DNA from: Hyphomicrobiaceae bacterium
GTDB taxonomy: Bacteria; Pseudomonadota; Alphaproteobacteria; Rhizobiales; Hyphomicrobiaceae
DNA: 64,000 nt
Reading direction: 5' to 3'
Assembly: GCA_025351355.1 (NCBI GenBank)
Contig: JANXWC010000251.1
Location: 1 to 64,000 of the forward strand
Shown: piece by piece, positions 9,279 to 46,293 of the stretch
How the letters are laid out: every line of letters begins with the position of its first letter
Position numbering within the stretch: the first letter of the stretch is position 1
Notes under the pieces: generated by a model
What the model saw: only the letters and a program-made list of their open reading frames with translations
Databases searched by the model: none
Told to the model about the DNA's origin: nothing
Translations under genes and position numbers: made by a program

Positions 9279-10020
9279 TGCGCAGTCGCCCGATGCGACG
9301 ACGCCCAAGGCTGCTGCCTTCATGGGCGGTGGAGCAACGGCGCCGGCCGCCGTTACGGAGACGACGAAATCCACCGAAAAATCGGCCACGGGAGCAGCTG
9401 CGGCTATTGCCCGAGCTGGCAAGACCGAAATCCCATCCGCCCTGGCGACGCCTAAAGCCGATGTCGGAAGTCCGTCCTATAAAATCAATGCGCTCGACGT
9501 GTTGGAAGTCGTGGTCTTCAAGGTACCGGATCTCAATCGGACGGTGACCGTCGCCGAAAACGGAGCGGTTAACCTGCCGCTGATCGGAGAGACCAACGTT
9601 GCGGGCATGACGGCGCAAGAAATTGAGCGCGACCTGGCGAAACGGCTTGGGGCGAAATATCTGCAGAACCCGCAGGTCTCAATCAGTGTCAAGGAATTCA
9701 ACAGTCAGCGTGTGACTATCGAGGGCGCCGTAAAGAAGCAGGGCGTTTATCCGCTGCGCGGAAAGACAACTCTCCTGCAGATCATTGCGACTGCCGATGG
9801 TTTGTCGGAGGTGGCTGAGTCCGAGGTCGTGGTTGTACGTGAAGTCAAGGGTAAGCGGACCGCGACCACCTACAATTTGGACGAGTTGCGGTCGGGCGCA
9901 ATTGCTGATCCGCAATTGCTCACCGGTGACTTCGTCATTGTCGGTACGTCGGCTATCAAAACGGCATTGAATAACGTGCTCAAGGCGTTGCCGCTTGCGA
10001 CACTGGCGAAGCCTTTCTGA
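9208..10020 (+). CDS. Wza-like polysaccharide export lipoprotein
   Basis: An outer-membrane polysaccharide secretin-like export protein, 270 residues. The ATG at 9208 begins a lipoprotein signal with lipobox LGAC (cysteine near residue 18). An earlier in-frame start at 9151 would put 19 unlikely residues ahead of it. After a Thr/Ala-rich linker comes the Poly_export domain (YKINALDVLEVVVF, LNRTVTVAENGAVNLPLIG, LQNPQVSISVKEF), then an SLBB domain (VTIEGAVKKQGVYPL, LLQIIATADGL). It is shorter than E. coli Wza and lacks that protein's C-terminal barrel helix, like other alphaproteobacterial OPX proteins. It should act with the autokinase encoded next. Confidence 0.92.
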   Translation: MSVAKPATVAILGLLGACSASLDSAQSPDATTPKAAAFMGGGATAPAAVTETTKSTEKSATGAAAAIARAGKTEIPSALATPKADVGSPSYKINALDVLEVVVFKVPDLNRTVTVAENGAVNLPLIGETNVAGMTAQEIERDLAKRLGAKYLQNPQVSISVKEFNSQRVTIEGAVKKQGVYPLRGKTTLLQIIATADGLSEVAESEVVVVREVKGKRTATTYNLDELRSGAIADPQLLTGDFVIVGTSAIKTALNNVLKALPLATLAKPF

Positions 10021-10046
10021 TCAAGCCGTTTTTTTTTAGCTGACGG

Positions 10047-10065
10047 CGTCGGCGGGTTGCCGACG
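10047..10065 (+). other. Hairpin in the spacer before the autokinase gene
   Basis: CGTCGGC (10047-10053) pairs with GCCGACG (10059-10065) around the loop GGGTT, 31 bases before the autokinase start at 10096. No T tract follows, so it is not a canonical terminator. It could tune the ratio of export lipoprotein to kinase by RNA stability or attenuation. A run of nine Ts lies just upstream at about 10029-10037. Confidence 0.45.
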
Positions 10066-10095
10066 TCAAACATCCGGACTTGCGGATTTCAATCC

Positions 10096-12405
10096 ATGAG
10101 TAATTTAACAACACCTGACGCAGAGCCAGGCAAGCGTCTGGTGCCGGCCTCGGATAACCTTGTCCCGGCTGGCTATGCGCAAGGTGGTGCCTATCGCGGC
10201 CTTGCCGACCCGAACGAGGTTCCGCGCTTCAACATCCAAGACTACATTCGGATCGTCTATAAACGAAAATGGCTCATCATCAGCCTGTTCACTGCCGCGG
10301 CGGTCTATGGGGCGTTGCAGGCCCTTATGACAATTCCGATTTACACAGCAAGCGTCCGTCTGCAGATTGATCGCACCTCCACCAAAGTTGTCGAAGGCGG
10401 TAACGTTTCCCCCCTCGAAGGTGCAGACAGCGATTTCTTACGTACGCAATACGAGCTCATTCAAAGTCGGGCGATGGCTGAGCGCGTTGTCGCTCGCACG
10501 CGCATCAGTGAAGAGTCGGATTTCTTCAGACCGCGATCGATTTCCTTTCTTAGTTTCGTGAAACAAAAGATCCTCGGTAGCCAACCCGTGCCGGTTTCGG
10601 GAGACCGGGCTGTTCGAGAGCGCTCGGCTGTAGGTTATGTGATGAACGGTCGCGCAGTCCGTCCCTTAACGGGCTCCCGTTTGGTTGATGTTACGTATTC
10701 GGACCCCGATCCGTCACGCGCACAGCGAATTGCGGCCGCTTACGGCGAAGAATTCATCGCATCCAACTTAGATAAACGATTTCAAGCAAATTCGTTTGCA
10801 AAGACTTTTCTCGAAGATCAGCTCAAGCAATTGAAATTGCGTCTTGAAGACTCAGAAAAGGCGTTGTTGCACTTTGCCGAGAGAGAACAGATTGTCGTGA
10901 CGACCGACAAGGCTTCGATCGCTGAGAGCAATCTGGCGGCCGCCAATGCCACGCTCGGAACGCTGATCAGCGAGCGGATTAAAGCCGAACAACAATGGAA
11001 ACAGGTTGAAAATGTTTCGGCTGTAGCCCTGCCGCAGTTTCTTATGAACACCGTCATCGTCGGATTGCGAGATCGACGTAATGCGCTGGTCACTGAATAT
11101 CAGGAGAAGCTCGAGACTTTTAAGCCGAGTTATCCTTCGATGATGCAAATAACTCAGAAAATCAACGAGATCGAGCGACAGCTTGCTGCAGAAGTAAAAA
11201 CCATAAAGACCTCGTTGAAGGGCGTTTACGAAGCGGCAACTCAACAAGAAGAGGATATGAAAAAGCGGATCGAGTCCTTGCGGCTGGAAGTGCTCGATTT
11301 GCAGAAATTGATGATTCAACACAATTTCTTGAAGCGCGAGGTGGATACTAACCGGTCCCTCTATGACAGCATGCTGCAGCGTTTCAAGGAAGTGGATATT
11401 GCTGGCGGCGTAGGCGCAAACAACGTTTTCATCGTTGATCAGGCGGAAATACCTGGAGCACCTTCCAACGAGGTTTCGCGCACACTTCTACTCTATTCGT
11501 TCCTTGGTTTGGGTGCCGGCCTTGCCGCGGCAATGGCGCTCGAACGGTTCGATGACACAGTCCGTTCACCGGACGACGTCGAACAGGCAGCAAATTTGCC
11601 GACCTTGGGCATCATTCCAAAGATTGGTGGCGCCGGTGTCGAAGAGGAATTGAGGGACCCGCGCTCGTCCGTATCCGAGTCCTACCGCTCGCTCTGCACG
11701 GCACTGCAATTCTCTACCGATGCAGGTTTGCCGAGAACGCTACTCATAACCAGCGCCGGCCCGTCGGAAGGCAAATCAATTACTGCTTACGCCATTGCGA
11801 GGCATTTCGCTCAATTGGGCATGAAGGTTCTGCTGATCGACGCCGATTTGCGCAACCCGTCGTTGCATAAGAAGTTGAACCAGGAAAATTCCGTCGGTTT
11901 GAGCAATTGTCTGACTGGCAATGCATCGCCGCCCGACGCGATGCAAAAGACGGAGATACCCACACTCGCGTTCATGTCATCGGGGCCACTACCGCCCAAC
12001 GCCGCGGACCTGCTGGCGAGTTCGCGCCTGCAATCGCTGCTGACCGTCGGCCTTGAAGTGTTTGATCTCATCGTCATCGATGGTCCTCCTGTGATGGGCT
12101 TGGCGGATGCGCCGCTGCTTTCAAGTGCCACTGCCGCAACTGCGTTCGTCGCGAGTGCTGGACAGGCGCGCGCCGGCCAGATCCGCGGTGCTTTACGCCG
12201 CCTTCAGATGGCCCGCGGACCGATCATCGGCACCGTCGTTACAAAATTCGACCCCAAGGGTGCTGGCTATGGCTACGGTGCCGGCTACGGCTACGGCTAT
12301 GGTTACGGCTATGGAACCTCTTACAACTATGGCACTGCGGACGCCCGAAAAGCCGTTGGTTCTGCCACTGGGGCCGCCATACCTTCATCAACGGAGCGCG
12401 GATGA
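10096..12405 (+). CDS. Wzc-like polysaccharide co-polymerase with tyrosine autokinase domain
   Basis: A 769-residue inner-membrane BY-kinase that controls chain length and export of the polymer. The N-terminal Wzz domain starts around residue 45, with TM1 at about 58-76. A long periplasmic coiled-coil region follows, and TM2 is near 463-485 (LLLYSFLGLGAGLAAAMAL). The cytoplasmic kinase has Walker A GPSEGKS near 555, Walker A' LLIDADLRNP near 580 and Walker B LIVIDGPP near 658. The C-terminus has a GYGYG-type tyrosine cluster of nine tyrosines (about 722-745), the expected autophosphorylation tail. ATG 10096 (MSNLTTPD) is preferred over 10057. Its stop overlaps the next start by ATGA. Confidence 0.95.
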   Translation: MSNLTTPDAEPGKRLVPASDNLVPAGYAQGGAYRGLADPNEVPRFNIQDYIRIVYKRKWLIISLFTAAAVYGALQALMTIPIYTASVRLQIDRTSTKVVEGGNVSPLEGADSDFLRTQYELIQSRAMAERVVARTRISEESDFFRPRSISFLSFVKQKILGSQPVPVSGDRAVRERSAVGYVMNGRAVRPLTGSRLVDVTYSDPDPSRAQRIAAAYGEEFIASNLDKRFQANSFAKTFLEDQLKQLKLRLEDSEKALLHFAEREQIVVTTDKASIAESNLAAANATLGTLISERIKAEQQWKQVENVSAVALPQFLMNTVIVGLRDRRNALVTEYQEKLETFKPSYPSMMQITQKINEIERQLAAEVKTIKTSLKGVYEAATQQEEDMKKRIESLRLEVLDLQKLMIQHNFLKREVDTNRSLYDSMLQRFKEVDIAGGVGANNVFIVDQAEIPGAPSNEVSRTLLLYSFLGLGAGLAAAMALERFDDTVRSPDDVEQAANLPTLGIIPKIGGAGVEEELRDPRSSVSESYRSLCTALQFSTDAGLPRTLLITSAGPSEGKSITAYAIARHFAQLGMKVLLIDADLRNPSLHKKLNQENSVGLSNCLTGNASPPDAMQKTEIPTLAFMSSGPLPPNAADLLASSRLQSLLTVGLEVFDLIVIDGPPVMGLADAPLLSSATAATAFVASAGQARAGQIRGALRRLQMARGPIIGTVVTKFDPKGAGYGYGAGYGYGYGYGYGTSYNYGTADARKAVGSATGAAIPSSTERG
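12264..12316 (+). repeat. In-frame GGCTAC/GGTTAT tandem repeat encoding the Gly-Tyr tail
   Basis: About nine units of a degenerate hexamer (GGCTAT, GGCTAC, GGTTAC) encode alternating Gly-Tyr in the autokinase C-terminus. Such a tract can change length by slippage in steps of six bases, which would keep the frame but alter the number of phosphorylatable tyrosines. Confidence 0.75.
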
Positions 12406-13001
12406 CCCCTGAGGCGGCGGCACTGCAGGCAGCGTCAGTATTGCTGCATGCACCAACCCAGGTACGCGTACTCCGTGCGGCCGTTCTTCCGGAAGCAACC
12501 AGCTTCCTGCTTCGCTTGGCTGCTGGTGAAATTGAGGCATTGCAGCACGCCACGAGCATCAGCAATCGGACCGACGTGCAGCTACGGAAAGCCGCCTTGT
12601 TTTTCATCGAACAGATTCTGCTCGCGCCCGAAGCCGACAGTTATCGGGTGTTGGGCGGCGGGCCGCAATCGACGAGTGCGGAACTTCGACGCAACATGGC
12701 GCTGTTACTGCGTGTCGTGCATCCGGATCTGGGCGCGAGCGCAGAGCATTCAAAGTCTGCGGCTCGCGTCACGCGCGCGTGGGAGGACATCAAGACACCA
12801 GAGCGTCGCGTCCAATATGACTTGAGTTCGCAAAAGGCGTTGTCGAGCAGTGGCAAAAAGCGGTCGCATGCGAGAGACTGGAAACGCCAGCAAAATGAGG
12901 CTCTCGTAAGCCGCCAGAAAGATCACTCTCGTGAACCGAGCCTCGTCAGACGAGCCTTGGCATTCCTGTTACGGTCACGCGACCGCGAGACGCGCCCATG
13001 A
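12402..13001 (+). CDS. J-domain (DnaJ-like) protein of the polysaccharide operon
   Basis: A 199-residue protein with an all-helical N-terminal region (about 1-75), then a degenerate J domain at about 79-143. It has SYRVLG at the start, the intact HPD tripeptide near residues 106-108 (VVHPDLG), and AWEDIKTPERRVQYD matching helices III-IV of the J fold. A basic C-terminal tail (SSGKKRSHARDWKRQQ) ends in an Arg-rich helix. J domains stimulate DnaK/Hsp70 ATPase, so this may recruit a chaperone to the export complex, which is inference. It overlaps the autokinase stop by ATGA and its own stop overlaps the next start the same way, so it is translationally coupled. Confidence 0.8.
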   Translation: MTPEAAALQAASVLLHAPTQVRVLRAAVLPEATSFLLRLAAGEIEALQHATSISNRTDVQLRKAALFFIEQILLAPEADSYRVLGGGPQSTSAELRRNMALLLRVVHPDLGASAEHSKSAARVTRAWEDIKTPERRVQYDLSSQKALSSSGKKRSHARDWKRQQNEALVSRQKDHSREPSLVRRALAFLLRSRDRETRP

Positions 13002-14314
13002 ATGGTCAGTTCACCGGCGCGCCGCCCCATCGAGGCGGAATGACGCCAATTGTGACTATCTTGGCGGCCAGCGTCTTGCTCCTTTATTTCGTCGTTACGC
13101 GATCGGTGTCGGCATCGCTTTCGCCCGAGATGGCGCTTCGCTTGCAGCCCAATAACGGGGTGGCGCTGGTCGATCTTGCCGAGCGATCCCTGCTTGCAGA
13201 AGTCACCCCGGCACGAGGTGCAGTAGCCATCGCAGCAAGCCAGGGCATGCGAGTGGAGAATCCGAATTCGGAAACCGACAACAGTCAGACGCGAACCAGG
13301 CTTCAGGCCGCACTTGCAACTGCTCCATTGAATGCAAGGGCACTGCGTATTCTGGCGCAGTTGGATGAGCGATCTGGCCCGCGGGAACAGCTGTTGCGAC
13401 TGATCGCAAAACTGGACATCAAGGAAAGCTATGCGATCGACACCTTGATGCATCGCGCGTTCGAGAGTGGGGACAATCGCGCAGCCGCAAAATATGCTGA
13501 CATTTTGCTGCGCACCAATTCGACCATGCTGCCGAGCGCAGTTCGCCTCCTCGTCGCCATTGCCGAGCGCCCCGAAGGAACTATGGTCGTTAATGAACTG
13601 CTTGCCGGCGATCCACCCTGGCGGCGATCGTTTTTTCTCAACATGCTGGCATCCATTACTGATGCCCGCACGCCCCTTGCCCTCATGCAACTCCTGAAGG
13701 CATCGAGCACGCCACCAGGTGAAGAGGAATTGAACCGCTATCTTCAATTTCTCGTGTCAAAGGGCTTTTATCAACTCGCCTACTATACTTGGCTGCAATT
13801 TTTGCCGGCCGACCGATTAGCGTCGACAGGATTTCTGTTCAATGGTGCATTCGAGAGCCCGGCCAGTGGCTCGCCATTCGATTGGAACATCGCAACCGAC
13901 AACGCGACGGTGATCGATTTCGCTCAGCGCCCAGATCAGCCAAAGAAGCGCGCGCTGTTGCTTGATATGCGCAACGCGCGCGTCGAATTCTCAGTTTATC
14001 AGATGATTGTCCTGGCTCCTGGATCGTTCAGGCTACACGGAAAGTTTATGGGAAATTTGGTCGGGAAGCGAGGCGTGCGTTGGCGCGTAATATGTGCAGG
14101 AGGCACGCTATTAGGCGAAAGCGCCATGATCGTTGGCGAGATAAAGGGGTGGGTCGACTTCAACGTGGATTTCGAAGTGCCAGCCGAAGGCTGCAAGGCG
14201 CAGACAATGACTTTGTCACTTGATTCGCGCTCCGCATCGGAAAAGTTCGTTTCGGGTTCGCTCAGTTTTGCCGAAATGTCCATCCAACCGCAGCGTGCGC
14301 AGCCGAGCCGCTAG
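12998..14314 (+). CDS. Membrane-anchored repeat protein of unknown function
   Basis: A 438-residue protein with one N-terminal membrane helix (PIVTILAASVLLLYFVV, residues 16-33) and a large periplasmic part. The middle (about 50-270) is built of helical, TPR-like stretches (RLQPNNGVALVDLAER, ALATAPLNARALRILAQL, AAKYADILLRTNS). The C-terminal 150 residues look like a beta-sandwich (FLFNGAFESP, FSVYQMIVLAPGSFRLHGKF, GWVDFNVDFEVP), perhaps carbohydrate-binding. Proteins of this layout occur beside O-antigen-ligase-like genes. No enzyme signature is visible. It is coupled to the J-domain gene by an ATGA overlap and is followed by a strong ribosome site for the next gene. Confidence 0.8.
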   Translation: MNGQFTGAPPHRGGMTPIVTILAASVLLLYFVVTRSVSASLSPEMALRLQPNNGVALVDLAERSLLAEVTPARGAVAIAASQGMRVENPNSETDNSQTRTRLQAALATAPLNARALRILAQLDERSGPREQLLRLIAKLDIKESYAIDTLMHRAFESGDNRAAAKYADILLRTNSTMLPSAVRLLVAIAERPEGTMVVNELLAGDPPWRRSFFLNMLASITDARTPLALMQLLKASSTPPGEEELNRYLQFLVSKGFYQLAYYTWLQFLPADRLASTGFLFNGAFESPASGSPFDWNIATDNATVIDFAQRPDQPKKRALLLDMRNARVEFSVYQMIVLAPGSFRLHGKFMGNLVGKRGVRWRVICAGGTLLGESAMIVGEIKGWVDFNVDFEVPAEGCKAQTMTLSLDSRSASEKFVSGSLSFAEMSIQPQRAQPSR

Positions 14315-14317
14315 TAT

Positions 14318-14325
14318 AAAGGAGG
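14318..14325 (+). promoter_or_regulatory. Strong Shine-Dalgarno that fixes a TTG start
   Basis: AAAGGAGG lies seven bases before TTG 14333. It is the best ribosome site seen in the locus and is the reason for choosing the TTG start of the ligase-like gene. Confidence 0.75.
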
Positions 14326-14332
14326 ATGCGTC

Positions 14333-15874
14333 TTGAAGTTTGGCCGATTCGATGCCGGGGCTATCGGCGCACAAAACGGTGTTCTGGCAGCAGCTCTGCT
14401 AATGATGGTCGCGGCCATCGTTTTCGGGGGAGGCACACGGCAGGGATTGCCTTCTGATGCTTTTCTCCAACTGTTGGCTGTGCCGGTGCTGGCAATTGGA
14501 GGCCTCAACATCGCTCGCCACGGACTCCCCGGGCAAGCTGTTCTTCCGATCATGTTCTGCGCCATGTGCGTGGCACTGCCCTTGTTGCAGCTTATCCCAC
14601 TACCTCCCAACCTCGATAACATCATGCCGTATCGCGGCTTGCTTCGCGAAATTCAGGGAGCTGCTGCAATCGACACGTCCTGGTGGCCGATCAGTCTCGC
14701 GCCGCAGACTACCGCGCTTGCGGTTCTGTCGACCCTACCCGCAATTGCTGTGTTTCTGTGCGCCCTCCAGCTCGATTGTCACGGTCGACGTGTCCTGGTC
14801 ACCACACTGATCGGCTGCGCTACCATTAGCGGTTTTTTGGGCCTCTTGCAGGTTGCCCAGGGGCAATCCAGTCCGCTCCGCTTCTACGAAGTGACAAACT
14901 TGAACGAGGCCGTCGGGTTTTTCGCCAACCGCAATCACTTTGCAGCTTTCATGTACGCGACGTGGATGTTGGCGGCGTGTTGGCTCAACGAGTCAGTGCG
15001 CGCCTATGTAGTGGCAACGCCCAATCGACGGTTATCGACTGGTGTTGCACTTCCGCTGTTGGCGGCCCTCGTCGCCGTCCTCGTATTGTTTGTGGCACTG
15101 CTTACCGCCCGCTCGCGTGCCGGTTTGGTTCTTGGCGGCGCTGCGATGATCATCGCTTTCACTACCGCCGCCGTTGGTCAGGGCCGGGGCACGTGGTTGC
15201 GCCCACGGTGGCTGCTCGCATTGGCGGCGGTTGGTACACTCCTGCTGTCGAGCCAATATGTATTGGTCCGCATGTTCGATCGATTGGCGGATGATCCTCT
15301 TCGAGATGCGCGTTTAGCTTTTGCACGCAACACTTTTCGTGCGGCAAAGGCTTTCCTGCCGTTCGGTTCCGGTGTCGGCACTTTTGCCCCCGTATATGCG
15401 CTTTTTGAAGCACCAACCGATGCAATGGTGGATACGTATGCCAACCGTGCACACAATGATATTCTTGAGATTGCGCTTGAGTCCGGATTGGCTGGAATAA
15501 TGCTAATGATAGTTTTTGCTGTCTGGCTGCTGCACCGACTTTGGAATGTCTGGAGAGGCGGGCTCGACCCTGCCGCAGACTTGGACAATCAGTTCGCGCG
15601 CGGCGCATGCGTCGTCATAATTCTTGTTTCGGCGCATTGTCTCGTTGACTATCCGGTTCGGACGGTCACCATTCTCACGACTTTGGGAGTTTGCTGCGCA
15701 CTCCTTTGCGCACCCTCGCACACAGTCGCGACCATCACCGACAACATGGAGGAGGTAAAGCCCACTACCGAACCGCCGGCGGCATCGTGGTCAACGCCAA
15801 AACCAAGTTTAGGCAATTGGCAACCCGAACAAAATTGGCCGGATTCGTGGAATGAGGGGAAACACCGCTCATGA
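14333..15874 (+). CDS. O-antigen ligase / Wzy-family polytopic membrane protein
   Basis: A 513-residue inner-membrane protein with about ten hydrophobic helices and a large periplasmic loop between about 340 and 380. The loop holds the family features: FGSGVGTFAPVYALFE (341-356) and YANRAHNDILEIALESG with the conserved histidine. This is the Wzy_C / O-antigen-ligase (PF04932) pattern. In a locus with Wza and Wzc homologues it could be the polymerase or could ligate chains to a carrier. A second, unrelated polymerase candidate is encoded at 34021-35385. The soluble Pro/Trp-rich C-terminus is unusual. TTG start supported by the upstream AAAGGAGG. Confidence 0.87.
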   Translation: MKFGRFDAGAIGAQNGVLAAALLMMVAAIVFGGGTRQGLPSDAFLQLLAVPVLAIGGLNIARHGLPGQAVLPIMFCAMCVALPLLQLIPLPPNLDNIMPYRGLLREIQGAAAIDTSWWPISLAPQTTALAVLSTLPAIAVFLCALQLDCHGRRVLVTTLIGCATISGFLGLLQVAQGQSSPLRFYEVTNLNEAVGFFANRNHFAAFMYATWMLAACWLNESVRAYVVATPNRRLSTGVALPLLAALVAVLVLFVALLTARSRAGLVLGGAAMIIAFTTAAVGQGRGTWLRPRWLLALAAVGTLLLSSQYVLVRMFDRLADDPLRDARLAFARNTFRAAKAFLPFGSGVGTFAPVYALFEAPTDAMVDTYANRAHNDILEIALESGLAGIMLMIVFAVWLLHRLWNVWRGGLDPAADLDNQFARGACVVIILVSAHCLVDYPVRTVTILTTLGVCCALLCAPSHTVATITDNMEEVKPTTEPPAASWSTPKPSLGNWQPEQNWPDSWNEGKHRS

Positions 15875-15920
15875 ACCACTCAGTCCAAATTTTCATGCTC
15901 ATATTTTAGGCAAACGTCAT

Positions 15921-15949
15921 TTGACCTTTGAAATTTCATCAACTAATAG
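15921..15949 (+). promoter_or_regulatory. Candidate sigma-70-type promoter for the sugar transferase gene
   Basis: TTGACC (15921-15926), a 17-base spacer and TAATAG (15944-15949) lie in an AT-rich stretch of the 184-base gap before the sugar-phosphate transferase. The assignment rests on sequence alone; TACACT at 15950-15955 is an alternative -10 with worse spacing. Confidence 0.4.
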
Positions 15950-16058
15950 TACACTAGATAGGTGATTTTTACACATGAGGTTAGGCTACTGGCGCCTCGC
16001 AGGAGATCGGGGTCTGATAAGAACTTGAGTTTGTTTGAGTTACAGGGGCACAGTTGTT

Positions 16059-17573
16059 ATGCGTCGTATTACTCTTTGGGCGATTGATCTGTTGTTGGTG
16101 TTCGTTTCCTGTATCGCGGCTATCGTGCTGAGGAACGGGTACGAAATGGCGCCCGGCCTAGTTGTTTCGGTGCTGCCGTATGTCATTGCCTCGATGTTAA
16201 GCTGGGCTGTCGTGAGCGGCGTATTAGGCACCAGCAAAAGCATCTGGCGCTACTCCTCTCTGTCGGACTACATGCAGATAGTATGGGCATCGATCCTAAC
16301 AACCACGATCGCCGCCGGCTCCATCTTTTTCCTCAATAGGCTGGACTCGGTCGCACGCTCTATTCCGTTCTTACATTTGTTGGTCATGATAACGGCTCTG
16401 GTTGGATCGAGAGTTGCTATGCGGATCCGCCATGCACGCCGCGGCACTCAAGCGCCCTTGCAAATGGTTGCCGCACAGGCCGACCGAAAAACTGTTGTGG
16501 TCGTAGGTATCGGGCCATTGTCTGAGCTGTATCTCAGGTCGCTTCAGGAAGTGGCAAGTGATCGAGTTCACGTTGCCGGTATCATCGGTCGTCGCCACGA
16601 CCAAACTGGTCGCGTCCTGTTAAATACCCCGATTTTGGGCACATTGGAAAACATTGAAACGATCATCAGGGACCTTACAGTCCATGGTGTATTTGTCGAC
16701 GAAATCATCGTCGCCATGTCCGCTACATCGCTGAAACCGGCCGCCAGGGAAGCGCTGCAAAAGCTCGAAATGGGCAATACCATAAACGTGCGATATCTCG
16801 CCGAAGAAATCGGACTTGAATCTTACGCTGCGCCGAGTTCGCGATTAACATCTGTCGACGTGCGCTCATCACAGCGCGTGTCAGTTTCCATTGTCGATGA
16901 TAAAATAGTCAGTGCCTCACAGCGGGTCTATTGGCGCGTCAAAAGAATATTTGATTTTGTTGCCGCCTTAGTGTTGTTGGCAATCTTTGCCCCGTTGCTT
17001 GCCTTCCTGGCGTTGCTCGTCGGCATCGATGTCGGTTTCCCCGTTACATTTTGGCAGCGCAGGCCTGGTTTTGGAGGACGGCCTTTTCAATGCCTTAAGT
17101 TTCGCACGATGAGGCCAGCTCACGACGCGGCAGGCTTGCTCGTGCCGGAAGCTGAACGGGTTTCATGGTTTGGTCGGTTGTTGCGAACAAGCCGTTTCGA
17201 CGAATTACCGCAGTTATTCAACATTCTCAACGGCGATATGTCTCTCATTGGTCCGCGGCCGTTGTTGCCCAAAGACCAACCAACAGACTGCGCCCGGTTA
17301 CTTGTGCGTCCTGGCTTGACTGGATGGGCGCAAGTGTGTGCACGACGTGCCGAGTCACCGGCGGACAAGGCTGCACTTGATACTTGGTATATCCTCAACG
17401 CATCGCCGTTCGTCGACTTACGCATTCTGTCGAAGACGATCAAAATTGTCTTGCTTGGCGAGCGCGTTGACTTTGACGCCCTCAATGCGGCGCGGTTGTT
17501 GCGGGCGGCGCCAACACTGTCGGCTGTTTCTTCTGGTGAGGAGCGTCGATTACCTTTACGAGCAGCCTCGTAA
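16059..17573 (+). CDS. Polyprenyl-phosphate hexose-1-phosphate transferase (WbaP/ExoY type, large form)
   Basis: The initiating enzyme that puts the first sugar phosphate on undecaprenyl phosphate at the inner membrane. It has 504 residues. Four N-terminal helices (about 1-115) are followed by a CoA-binding-like domain (VVVVGIGPLSELYL to about residue 250), a fifth membrane segment (IFDFVAALVLLAIFAPLLAF, about 303-322) and the catalytic bacterial sugar transferase domain. That domain has KFRTMR, the SWFGRLLRTSRFDELPQL helix, NGDMSLIGPRP and RPGLTGWAQV. ATG 16059 with CAGGGG upstream is preferred over TTG 16035. It stands as its own unit between two sizeable gaps. Which hexose (glucose or galactose) is loaded cannot be read. 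Confidence 0.93.
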   Translation: MRRITLWAIDLLLVFVSCIAAIVLRNGYEMAPGLVVSVLPYVIASMLSWAVVSGVLGTSKSIWRYSSLSDYMQIVWASILTTTIAAGSIFFLNRLDSVARSIPFLHLLVMITALVGSRVAMRIRHARRGTQAPLQMVAAQADRKTVVVVGIGPLSELYLRSLQEVASDRVHVAGIIGRRHDQTGRVLLNTPILGTLENIETIIRDLTVHGVFVDEIIVAMSATSLKPAAREALQKLEMGNTINVRYLAEEIGLESYAAPSSRLTSVDVRSSQRVSVSIVDDKIVSASQRVYWRVKRIFDFVAALVLLAIFAPLLAFLALLVGIDVGFPVTFWQRRPGFGGRPFQCLKFRTMRPAHDAAGLLVPEAERVSWFGRLLRTSRFDELPQLFNILNGDMSLIGPRPLLPKDQPTDCARLLVRPGLTGWAQVCARRAESPADKAALDTWYILNASPFVDLRILSKTIKIVLLGERVDFDALNAARLLRAAPTLSAVSSGEERRLPLRAAS

Positions 17574-17653
17574 TGCCTTCTGGGTCGTAGTGCGAAAGAG
17601 TTAGCCCAACGATCGGAAGCCGCCGCCGCATCCAAGACAGACTAAGCATTGCG

Positions 17654-17684
17654 TTGCAGCGTCGCTTCGTCCATCGACTATACT
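17654..17684 (+). promoter_or_regulatory. Candidate promoter of the 27-kb glycan operon
   Basis: TTGCAG (17654-17659) and TATACT (17679-17684) are separated by 19 bases, slightly longer than ideal. A start site near 17691 would give a leader of about 180 nt carrying the hairpin at 17725-17761 and the ops-like element at 17809-17820 before the first gene at 17870. The rest of the 296-base gap (17574-17869) holds no gene. Confidence 0.4.
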
Positions 17685-17724
17685 GCTGGCGGTAAAATGA
17701 GCCCGCCTGAGGCATAAATACAGA

Positions 17725-17761
17725 GTACGCGCTTTCGCCGCTATGGCAGCAAAGCGCGTAC
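17725..17761 (+). promoter_or_regulatory. Long leader hairpin (11-bp perfect inverted repeat)
   Basis: GTACGCGCTTT (17725-17735) pairs perfectly with AAAGCGCGTAC (17751-17761). Inside the 15-base loop GCC and GGC can pair further. No T tract follows, so it is not a simple terminator. It sits between the candidate promoter and the ops-like element and could be an RNA structure in the leader or a protein-binding palindrome. Confidence 0.6.
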
Positions 17762-17807
17762 TTAAGATGCACGCGCTGCTGACATTCGGTGATTTTTTTC
17801 ACCCGGA

Positions 17808-17835
17808 CTGCGGTAGCGTGGAATAACTCCCGCAG
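17808..17835 (+). promoter_or_regulatory. ops-like element in the operon leader
   Basis: TGCGGTAGCGTG (17809-17820) differs from the enterobacterial ops element GGCGGTAGCGTG only at the first base. In E. coli, ops in the non-template strand pauses RNA polymerase and recruits RfaH, which suppresses termination in long polysaccharide operons. Here the element begins inside the left arm of a second inverted repeat, CTGCGG (17808-17813) with CCGCAG (17830-17835). It lies 50 bases before the first gene of a 27-kb co-directional gene run. A NusG/RfaH-type paralogue is encoded at 45757-46293. Confidence 0.6.
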
Positions 17836-17869
17836 ATAAAACCAGAAATCGAACTAAGCGAAAAATAAA

Positions 17870-18844
17870 ATGCACCGCGTGAGCGAATTGATTAAAACAA
17901 AAACTATTCTGATCACTGGCGGCGCAGGATTTTTGGGCTCTCATCTCTGCGACAAACTAATTGCTGACGGGCACGATATAATTTGCGCCGACAACTTATT
18001 TACAGGATCTAAACGGAATATAGAACACTTGCTTGCCCATCCCCATTTTGAGTTTATTCGCCATGATGTGACGTTTCCTCTCTACATCGAAGCGGACGAA
18101 ATCTACAACCTTGCCTGTCCAGCATCTCCGATACATTACCAGCACGATCCCGTGCAAACGACGAAAACAAGCGTGCACGGCGCTATCAATATGCTGGGGT
18201 TAGCCAAAAGGTTGAAGGCGAAAATTTTCCAAGCCTCTACATCAGAGATTTACGGCGACCCGAGCGTGCACCCACAAACAGAAGACTATTGGGGCAACGT
18301 CAATCCAATCGGTCCGCGGTCGTGCTACGATGAAGGCAAGCGTTGCGCTGAAACGCTGTTTTTCGACTATCACCGCCAGCATAAACTCGAGATCAAGGTT
18401 GCACGTATATTCAATACTTACGGCCCGAGAATGCGTCCCGACGACGGCAGAGTTGTTTCTAATTTTGTTGTTCAGGCCTTGCGTGGCGATAATATCACCA
18501 TTTACGGCGACGGCAGCCAAACGCGCTCATTCTGCTACGTGGACGACTTAATTAATGGATTCGTTCGCTTCATGAATTCACCGACCGAACTGGTGGGGCC
18601 GATCAACTTGGGCAACCCCGTTGAATTTACGATTTTGCAACTCGCCGAATTGGCCATCGAACTTACCGGCTCCAAGTCAAAACTGACATTCCTGCCGTTG
18701 CCGCAGGATGATCCGAGACAGAGAAAGCCGGATATCGGCTTGGCGCTGCGTCACCTTGATTGGCAACCCGTAGTCCCGTTGAGAAATGGACTTGAGAAAA
18801 CAATTGCATACTTCGAACGCCTGTTAGCAGCGGAGAGCAAGTGA
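17870..18844 (+). CDS. UDP-glucuronate decarboxylase (UDP-xylose synthase)
   Basis: Converts UDP-glucuronate to UDP-xylose in the cytosol. The protein has 324 residues, the normal length for bacterial UXS. It shows the extended SDR Rossmann motif [10 protein letters not shown] (residues 17-26), [12 protein letters not shown], the serine of [10 protein letters not shown], the catalytic Tyr-Lys pair in [18 protein letters not shown] and [13 protein letters not shown]. These details separate UXS from ordinary dTDP-glucose dehydratases. ATG 17870 has a weak ribosome site; GTG 17879 is a possible alternative. It is the first gene of the long operon; its substrate is made by the UDP-glucose dehydrogenase at the operon's end. 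The DNA is visibly more AT-rich than the flanking housekeeping genes. Confidence 0.92.
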
Positions 18845-45756: not shown

Positions 45757-46293
45757 CTATGGAGCAAGCGGTCGGACCGCGCGCACATCTGTAGTGAACG
45801 CGACTGGCCGGTGCAGCAATTCGAGCATGACGACAATACGATCCGCATCTTTCAGCGCCACTATTTTGGCGACGACACCCTCAAAGGCATTACTGACAAA
45901 CTGGACGGAATCCCCAATCTCATATGGGTTTTCCGGCCTGACGACGGCGCCCTCCAATTCACGTGCTTTCAATGCATCAATGAACCCGCCATCAAGTAAG
46001 GCCGGGCGATCACCGGCCTTTACGATGCGTCGCACACCGAATGTCGAGCCAATAGGCGACCATTGTTGTATTGCCGGATCAAGGGCCACGAAAACGTATC
46101 CGGGGAATAGGGGCTTCAGAATATCTCGCAACCGACGCGCGTGCGAGGTGCGACGCAGAACACGCGGACAATAGGGTTCGTAGCCCTGTCGGGAGAGTTG
46201 CTCGACGACCGCCATTTCCCGGTGCGGCTGCGTATTGACGACCGCGAACTGTTGATACTTCTGTAGCAGATCGGGCGGAACGCGTTGCAGCAT
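45757..46293 (-). CDS. NusG-family elongation factor paralogue (RfaH-like)
   Basis: A 178-residue transcription elongation factor. The NGN domain at about 10-110 reads FAVVNTQPHREMAVVEQL, GYEPYCPRVLRRT and ILKPLFPGYVFVALD. GVRRIVKAGDRPALL follows, with the spacing of E. coli RfaH (EPLFPNYLFVEFD in that protein). The C-terminal KOW domain has IGDSVQFVSNAFEGVVAKIVAL and a RfaH-like tail. It is not the housekeeping NusG, which sits with secE and the rpl genes. Start uncertain: ATG 46293 or GTG 46329. Its position beside the glycan operon and the ops-like element in that operon's leader suggest it is the dedicated antiterminator. Confidence 0.88.
   Translation of the reverse strand: MLQRVPPDLLQKYQQFAVVNTQPHREMAVVEQLSRQGYEPYCPRVLRRTSHARRLRDILKPLFPGYVFVALDPAIQQWSPIGSTFGVRRIVKAGDRPALLDGGFIDALKARELEGAVVRPENPYEIGDSVQFVSNAFEGVVAKIVALKDADRIVVMLELLHRPVAFTTDVRAVRPLAP

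Follow-up and report, generated by a model that had tools for sequence, protein, structure and literature searches.

The leader of a long glycan operon in this Hyphomicrobiaceae genome carries a composite element which very probably serves a processive antitermination system of the ops/RfaH-like type, the element recruiting a specialised NusG paralogue to the operon. Comparison of related loci shows that the conserved unit is an RNA hairpin joined to an ops core, and that the 12-mer motif from which the analysis started is its 3′ half; the hairpin, lying just upstream of the motif at 17785-17808, was missed in the preliminary description. The window, i.e. the whole analysed stretch of 64,000 nucleotides, contains the following features relevant to this reading:

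9322-17573, + strand: upstream EPS export and assembly genes (wza-like, wzc-like, Wzy/ligase-like, phosphoglycosyltransferase), from annotation.
17574-17869, + strand: non-coding leader from the EPS phosphoglycosyltransferase gene to the operon, from gene calls.
17785-17808, + strand: RNA hairpin with 5′ arm TTCGGTGA, T-rich loop and 3′ arm TCACCCGGA, from covariance model, fold and compensatory pairs.
17809-17820, + strand: ops-like core TGCGGTAGCGTG, from motif match and alignment of elements.
17870-45734, + strand: putative target, a co-directional glycan operon of about 28 kb, from gene annotation.
45757-46293, - strand: RfaH-like NusG paralogue of 178 aa with NGN and KOW domains, from profile, alignment and model.

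The very long polysaccharide operon proposed to follow the motif is borne out: it runs from 17870 to 45734, with every gene read from the + strand, and comprises SDR/uxs-like, galE, acyltransferase, asnB, methyltransferase, glycosyltransferase and ABC-2 exporter genes, as well as carbamoyltransferase, fcl, gmd, ugd, ElyC-like and nucleotide-sugar genes. No sigma-70-type promoter was recognised in the leader (17574-17869), and the EPS genes at 9322-17573 are possibly the source of read-through transcription into the operon. Positions 17722-17766, about 20 nt 5′ of the element, can adopt a very strong stem-loop (-25 kcal/mol, z -4.4) without a U-tract, which may be a terminator of the upstream operon or a leader structure; strong stems occur near the equivalent place in some relatives, with no common form or position.

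In relatives the composite element shows a constant order, namely a hairpin of the TTCGGGTGA…TCACCCGAA type followed by GCGGTAGC and, as a rule, by T at position 11, with the hairpin terminating at ops position -1 to +1 and the sequence to the left of TCACCC forming its inverted repeat. The octamer GCGGTAGC (positions 2-9) is kept in all aligned elements but one, and T occupies position 11, which played no part in the selection, in 85% of 94 elements picked for GCGGTAGC together with a CACC-like word upstream of it. Polymerase paused at E. coli ops has U11 at the 3′ end of its RNA, and the T11 preference is consistent with a polymerase pause at this position.

The class-wide distribution of the element was assessed in 337 alphaproteobacterial genomes, with the element sought by covariance search and the paralogue defined by a score of at least 100 bits against its family profile (A9). 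The paralogue is present in 82 genomes, about a quarter. At E<=1e-5 the element was detected in 39 of the 337, all 39 carrying the paralogue as against 0 of 255 genomes without it (Fisher p 2e-28), and within the subset with polysaccharide export genes the numbers were 16 versus 0 (p 6e-11); both p-values take genomes as independent, which does not hold, and more weight attaches to the breadth of the association across many families. Relaxing the threshold to E<=1e-3 gave 51 paralogue genomes versus 6 others. In 43 of the 82 paralogue genomes the element was missing at E<=1e-5; the filters lose weak matches, and variants of the element are likely in genomes without a match at this level. About 30 elements lie 14-230 nt 3′ of the paralogue stop codon on the same strand, a layout encountered on named contigs of Rhodospirillales, Kiloniella, Magnetospirillum, Magnetovibrio, Micavibrio and a Rhodobacteraceae MAG, and behind such paralogue-adjacent elements one often finds 15-18 co-directional genes, as far as the sequence was read. 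One element-led operon encodes NeuB, a cytidylyltransferase and an aminotransferase, i.e. sugar-acid synthesis, and the class of targets is therefore broad. Linkage to the paralogue at the level of genomes and by position, together with placement before long gene runs, is read from the sequences directly.

The alternative that survives best regards the element as a general pause site or attenuator of polysaccharide leaders, or as an RNA read by another protein, which accompanies the gene clusters that the paralogue also accompanies and is unbound by the paralogue. We consider it improbable: element and paralogue are indeed both tied to polysaccharide clusters, and the residues K10, H20 and R73 by which RfaH contacts ops are lost, but the element occurs in 0 of 121 genomes that have polysaccharide export genes and no paralogue, its link with the paralogue persists when kilobases separate them or when the downstream genes differ, and its core is exactly the octamer read by RfaH.

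Outside Alphaproteobacteria the element at E<=1e-5 was found only in one family (f202), two genomes of which have it behind the paralogue at distances of 34 and 77 nt; the proteins of this family nest among alphaproteobacterial ones, which suggests transfer. Elements of the form TCACCC(N)4-5-GCGGTAGC were also observed on MAG contigs assigned to Desulfobulbaceae and “Deltaproteobacteria” (L212 at about 2240, L216 at about 10040, L219 at about 6915), at 90-170 nt 3′ of the RfaH-like gene that each contig carries, and the system may accordingly reach beyond Pseudomonadota. Two alphaproteobacterial paralogues without the element (L315 on contig C20 of G619 and L310 on contig C50 of G695) branch off the main group and may represent RfaH of another type.

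The hairpin half of the element was characterised with a covariance model built in two rounds, R1 and then R2, the latter trained on 38 elements. The model matches 17784-17823 with 35.2 bits (E 5e-9), and the window hairpin has a fold energy of -7.3 to -9.1 kcal/mol. Of 30 aligned elements, 29 fold into a hairpin, with the stem ending at ops position 0 or within a few bases of it. In 30 class-wide matches to the model, 28 of them outside the training set, the 11 pairs show 84.5% standard pairing. Two-sided changes amount to 24 cells over these 30 loci versus a shuffled mean of 7.6, a value reached in 0 of 500 shuffles, while the covariation score of 0.282 drops to 0.083 or less when the alignment is slid by one column. 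The outer pair at position 0 is G-C in 14 and C-G in 7 of the 30 matches; since this pair is absent from the model, its covariation did not arise from the fitting. The element as such, the covariation of its hairpin and the conservation of core and register are seen in the alignments themselves. A terminator of the upstream gene with an incidental ops-like octamer beside it would account for the T-rich loop of the window hairpin and for a weak terminator-like call overlapping it, but relatives lack a U-tract after the stem, and the register between stem and octamer is fixed across many families with compensatory changes, which makes this explanation very improbable.

The core TGCGGTAGCGTG on the + strand shares 11 of 12 bases with E. 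coli ops and is separated by 50 nt from the first gene of the operon, in full agreement with the preliminary description; this gene begins with the ATG at 17870, and the intergenic leader spans 296 nt. It is the sole match to GGCGGTAGCGTG with at most one mismatch in the 64-kb window, where 18 matches with at most two mismatches are found versus 7.7 expected. The exact 11-mer GCGGTAGCGTG shows no enrichment genome-wide, having 5 copies versus 11 of the reversed control pattern, so that the bare word is within chance; as it is rarer than the control and its copies in relatives are mostly coding, its count was dropped as evidence. The earlier judgement that chance is unlikely at this exact position holds by conservation, although the motif count alone fits chance; the significance of the motif comes from its conservation. 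The embedding of the motif in CTGCGG...CCGCAG, noted previously as an additional feature, is present and not conserved (CCGCA follows downstream in 3 of 94 elements, with 1.4 expected), and this flanking repeat is incidental.

An exact GCGGTAGCGTG is also present at L004 1501-1511 on the - strand (C168:19501-19511 of the same genome); it follows an L,D-transpeptidase gene at a distance of about 10 nt and precedes a pelA-pelF type operon. As a second target this pelA leader was rejected, its copy having no hairpin and being absent from the pelA leaders of congeners, and the 11-mer there is probably a chance copy. The genome encodes a second pelA-like gene, 42% identical (L278; G000 C129:30132-30947).

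Close relatives of the 5.25-Mb draft genome are Hyphomicrobiaceae/Hyphomicrobiales MAGs and Hyphomicrobium. The preliminary description had staked its reading on conservation of the motif upstream of orthologous operons, and the reading survived this comparison. In one relative (G023) the orthologous leader, delimited by orthologues of the 16059 and 17870 genes, has TCACCCGAAGTGCGGTAGCTTTG, and in comparison TTCACCCGAAGTGCGGTAGCTTTG of its intergenic region stands against TTTCACCCGGACTGCGGTAGCGTG of the window. The extended 19-mer TCACCCGAAGTGCGGTAGC occurs with at most two mismatches in 25 of 42 paralogue-bearing relatives versus 1 of 78 non-bearing ones, and about a dozen paralogue-bearing genomes hold exact copies. 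Elements lie mostly between genes, the strong copies being intergenic, and stand ahead of co-directional runs, often of 10-18 genes; no good element was found in the fragmented assemblies of the two congeners with the paralogue (G002 and G004). A chance match of the 12-mer, for which the 11-mer count below the reversed control and the unconserved, hairpin-less copy in the pelA leader might speak, is scarcely credible, as hairpin plus core at 17785-17820 are the only match at E<=0.01 in a covariance search of the own genome and the orthologous leader shares the element, and for these positions it is already refuted by conservation.

The only genes of the genome with the PF02357 domain are the paralogue and the housekeeping NusG. 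The description of the product of 45757-46293, convergent with the operon, as an RfaH-like NusG paralogue is upheld as regards likeness and NGN/KOW architecture, and it fails at the RfaH cut-off and at the ops-contact residues. Its best NusG-type model is RfaH (TIGR01955; 86 bits, below the equivalog cut-off of 144.5), ahead of UpxY (51 bits, below the cut-off of 100), NusG (34 bits) and LoaP (23 bits, below the cut-off of 125); compared with solved structures, the family profile fits RfaH best (106 bits versus 65 for NusG), and ops-recruited RfaH is the first structural match of the AlphaFold model. A single-sequence fold of the protein was uninformative (pLDDT 43). In E. coli, RfaH contacts ops by K10, H20, R23 and R73 (PMC5995543). 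The window protein keeps R23, together with Q24, and has K10, H20 and R73 replaced; H20 is found in some relatives’ paralogues, and across the paralogues the DNA-pocket residues R23 and Q24 (PMC5995543) are for the most part retained. Since K10, H20 and R73 are not conserved, DNA reading cannot be identical to that of E. coli RfaH. The family carries the signature HAR...RPLFPGYxF (45757-46293 and alignment A9), and its conserved basic HAR(K/R), in place of RfaH’s RGKR, could be a nucleic-acid contact. The position of E48, the salt-bridge residue of RfaH, is occupied by K or R in the paralogues, and structure prediction gives KOW as a beta barrel, not alpha (mean pLDDT 90). The protein tree, which has long branches and weak deep forks, places the gammaproteobacterial proteins and EcRfaH in a group of their own (99/100).

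In the proposed mechanism the nascent RNA of the leader would form a hairpin, and about 10-12 nt beyond it the ops core would halt the polymerase, the RNA 3′ end then lying near position 11. Exposed on the non-template strand, GCGGTAGC would fold into a small C3:G8 hairpin presenting G5 and T6, on which the paralogue’s NGN domain would dock, displacing NusG and riding with the polymerase; the riding paralogue would suppress pausing and Rho-dependent polarity along the 28-kb operon, and its KOW domain probably aids ribosome loading. Pausing, DNA binding, anti-polarity and ribosome contact we infer by analogy with E. coli RfaH. Since the paralogue gene stands directly 5′ of the element in many relatives, loading there would be in cis, and the recurrence in many lineages of a factor gene before its own loading site makes cis loading likely ancestral; in the genome under study 28 kb separate the element from the paralogue gene, which is convergent with the operon, hence the paralogue probably acts in trans. 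As the KOW domain is apparently not autoinhibited, the RNA hairpin may, hypothetically, supply specificity. A fuller version, in which two keys are used, so that a non-autoinhibited paralogue reads the nascent-RNA hairpin (as LoaP does) along with the non-template ops hairpin (as RfaH does), cis action being ancestral and trans action derived, is put forward tentatively and appears rather unlikely in its entirety.

No description of an alphaproteobacterial ops or JUMPstart was found in the open-access literature searched, and the system appears to be a relative of RfaH that is widespread in Alphaproteobacteria and has apparently gone undescribed. According to reviews, E. coli RfaH was the one factor whose mode of recruitment had been worked out in detail (PMC7593976, 2020; PMC6391919, 2019), LoaP’s RNA hairpin having been added later to the known modes (PMC12691694). 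The element offers a concrete conserved candidate for the recruitment of specialised NusG paralogues in a second large group, makes the question of how other paralogues find their targets directly testable and points to a hairpin-plus-ops architecture that is either old or has been used repeatedly; the paralogue family lends itself to comparison in tracing how autoinhibition of RfaH evolved, and the covariance model provides a search tool for targets of these factors.

With the E. coli RfaH/ops pair the system has in common an NGN-KOW NusG paralogue, leader position, long polysaccharide operons, a sense-strand GCGGTAGC core with C3, G5, T6 and G8, and, as a preference, T at position 11, the pause position of E. 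coli ops. It differs by protein identity of only about 24% to E. coli RfaH, a score below the equivalog cut-off, replacement of K10, R73 and E48, a predicted beta KOW, a factor gene often immediately 5′ of the element, and relaxed positions 1 and 10-12. JUMPstart (Hobbs and Reeves), reported for Gammaproteobacteria (PMC2864571), likewise has an RNA hairpin in fixed register just 5′ of ops: in E. coli leaders (rfb CTGG…CCAG, waaQ CAGG…CCTG) the stem ends at -1, one base before GGCGGTAGCGTG. Here stem and loop sequences differ (GGGTGA/TCACCC, with a loop that lacks GGTAGC). Neither the window leader nor any of 19 element loci matched the Rfam JUMPstart model RF01707 at E<=10, and the new covariance model reached only 12-13 bits on E. 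coli leaders; with cross-matches barely or never obtained, the two share architecture and not sequence. LoaP with the dfn leader hairpin of Bacillus also combines a NusG paralogue, a small leader RNA hairpin and a long operon, but its hairpin is of the UNCG type without an ops core (PMC12691694), and the LoaP model scores low on the window protein, as given above. Monomorphic beta-RfaH proteins acting in cis resemble the paralogue in the predicted beta KOW, the gene beside a long operon and the missing ops-contact residues (PMC13015549); those proteins functioned without ops in a reporter assay (PMC13015549), whereas here a conserved ops-like element stands with the paralogue gene.
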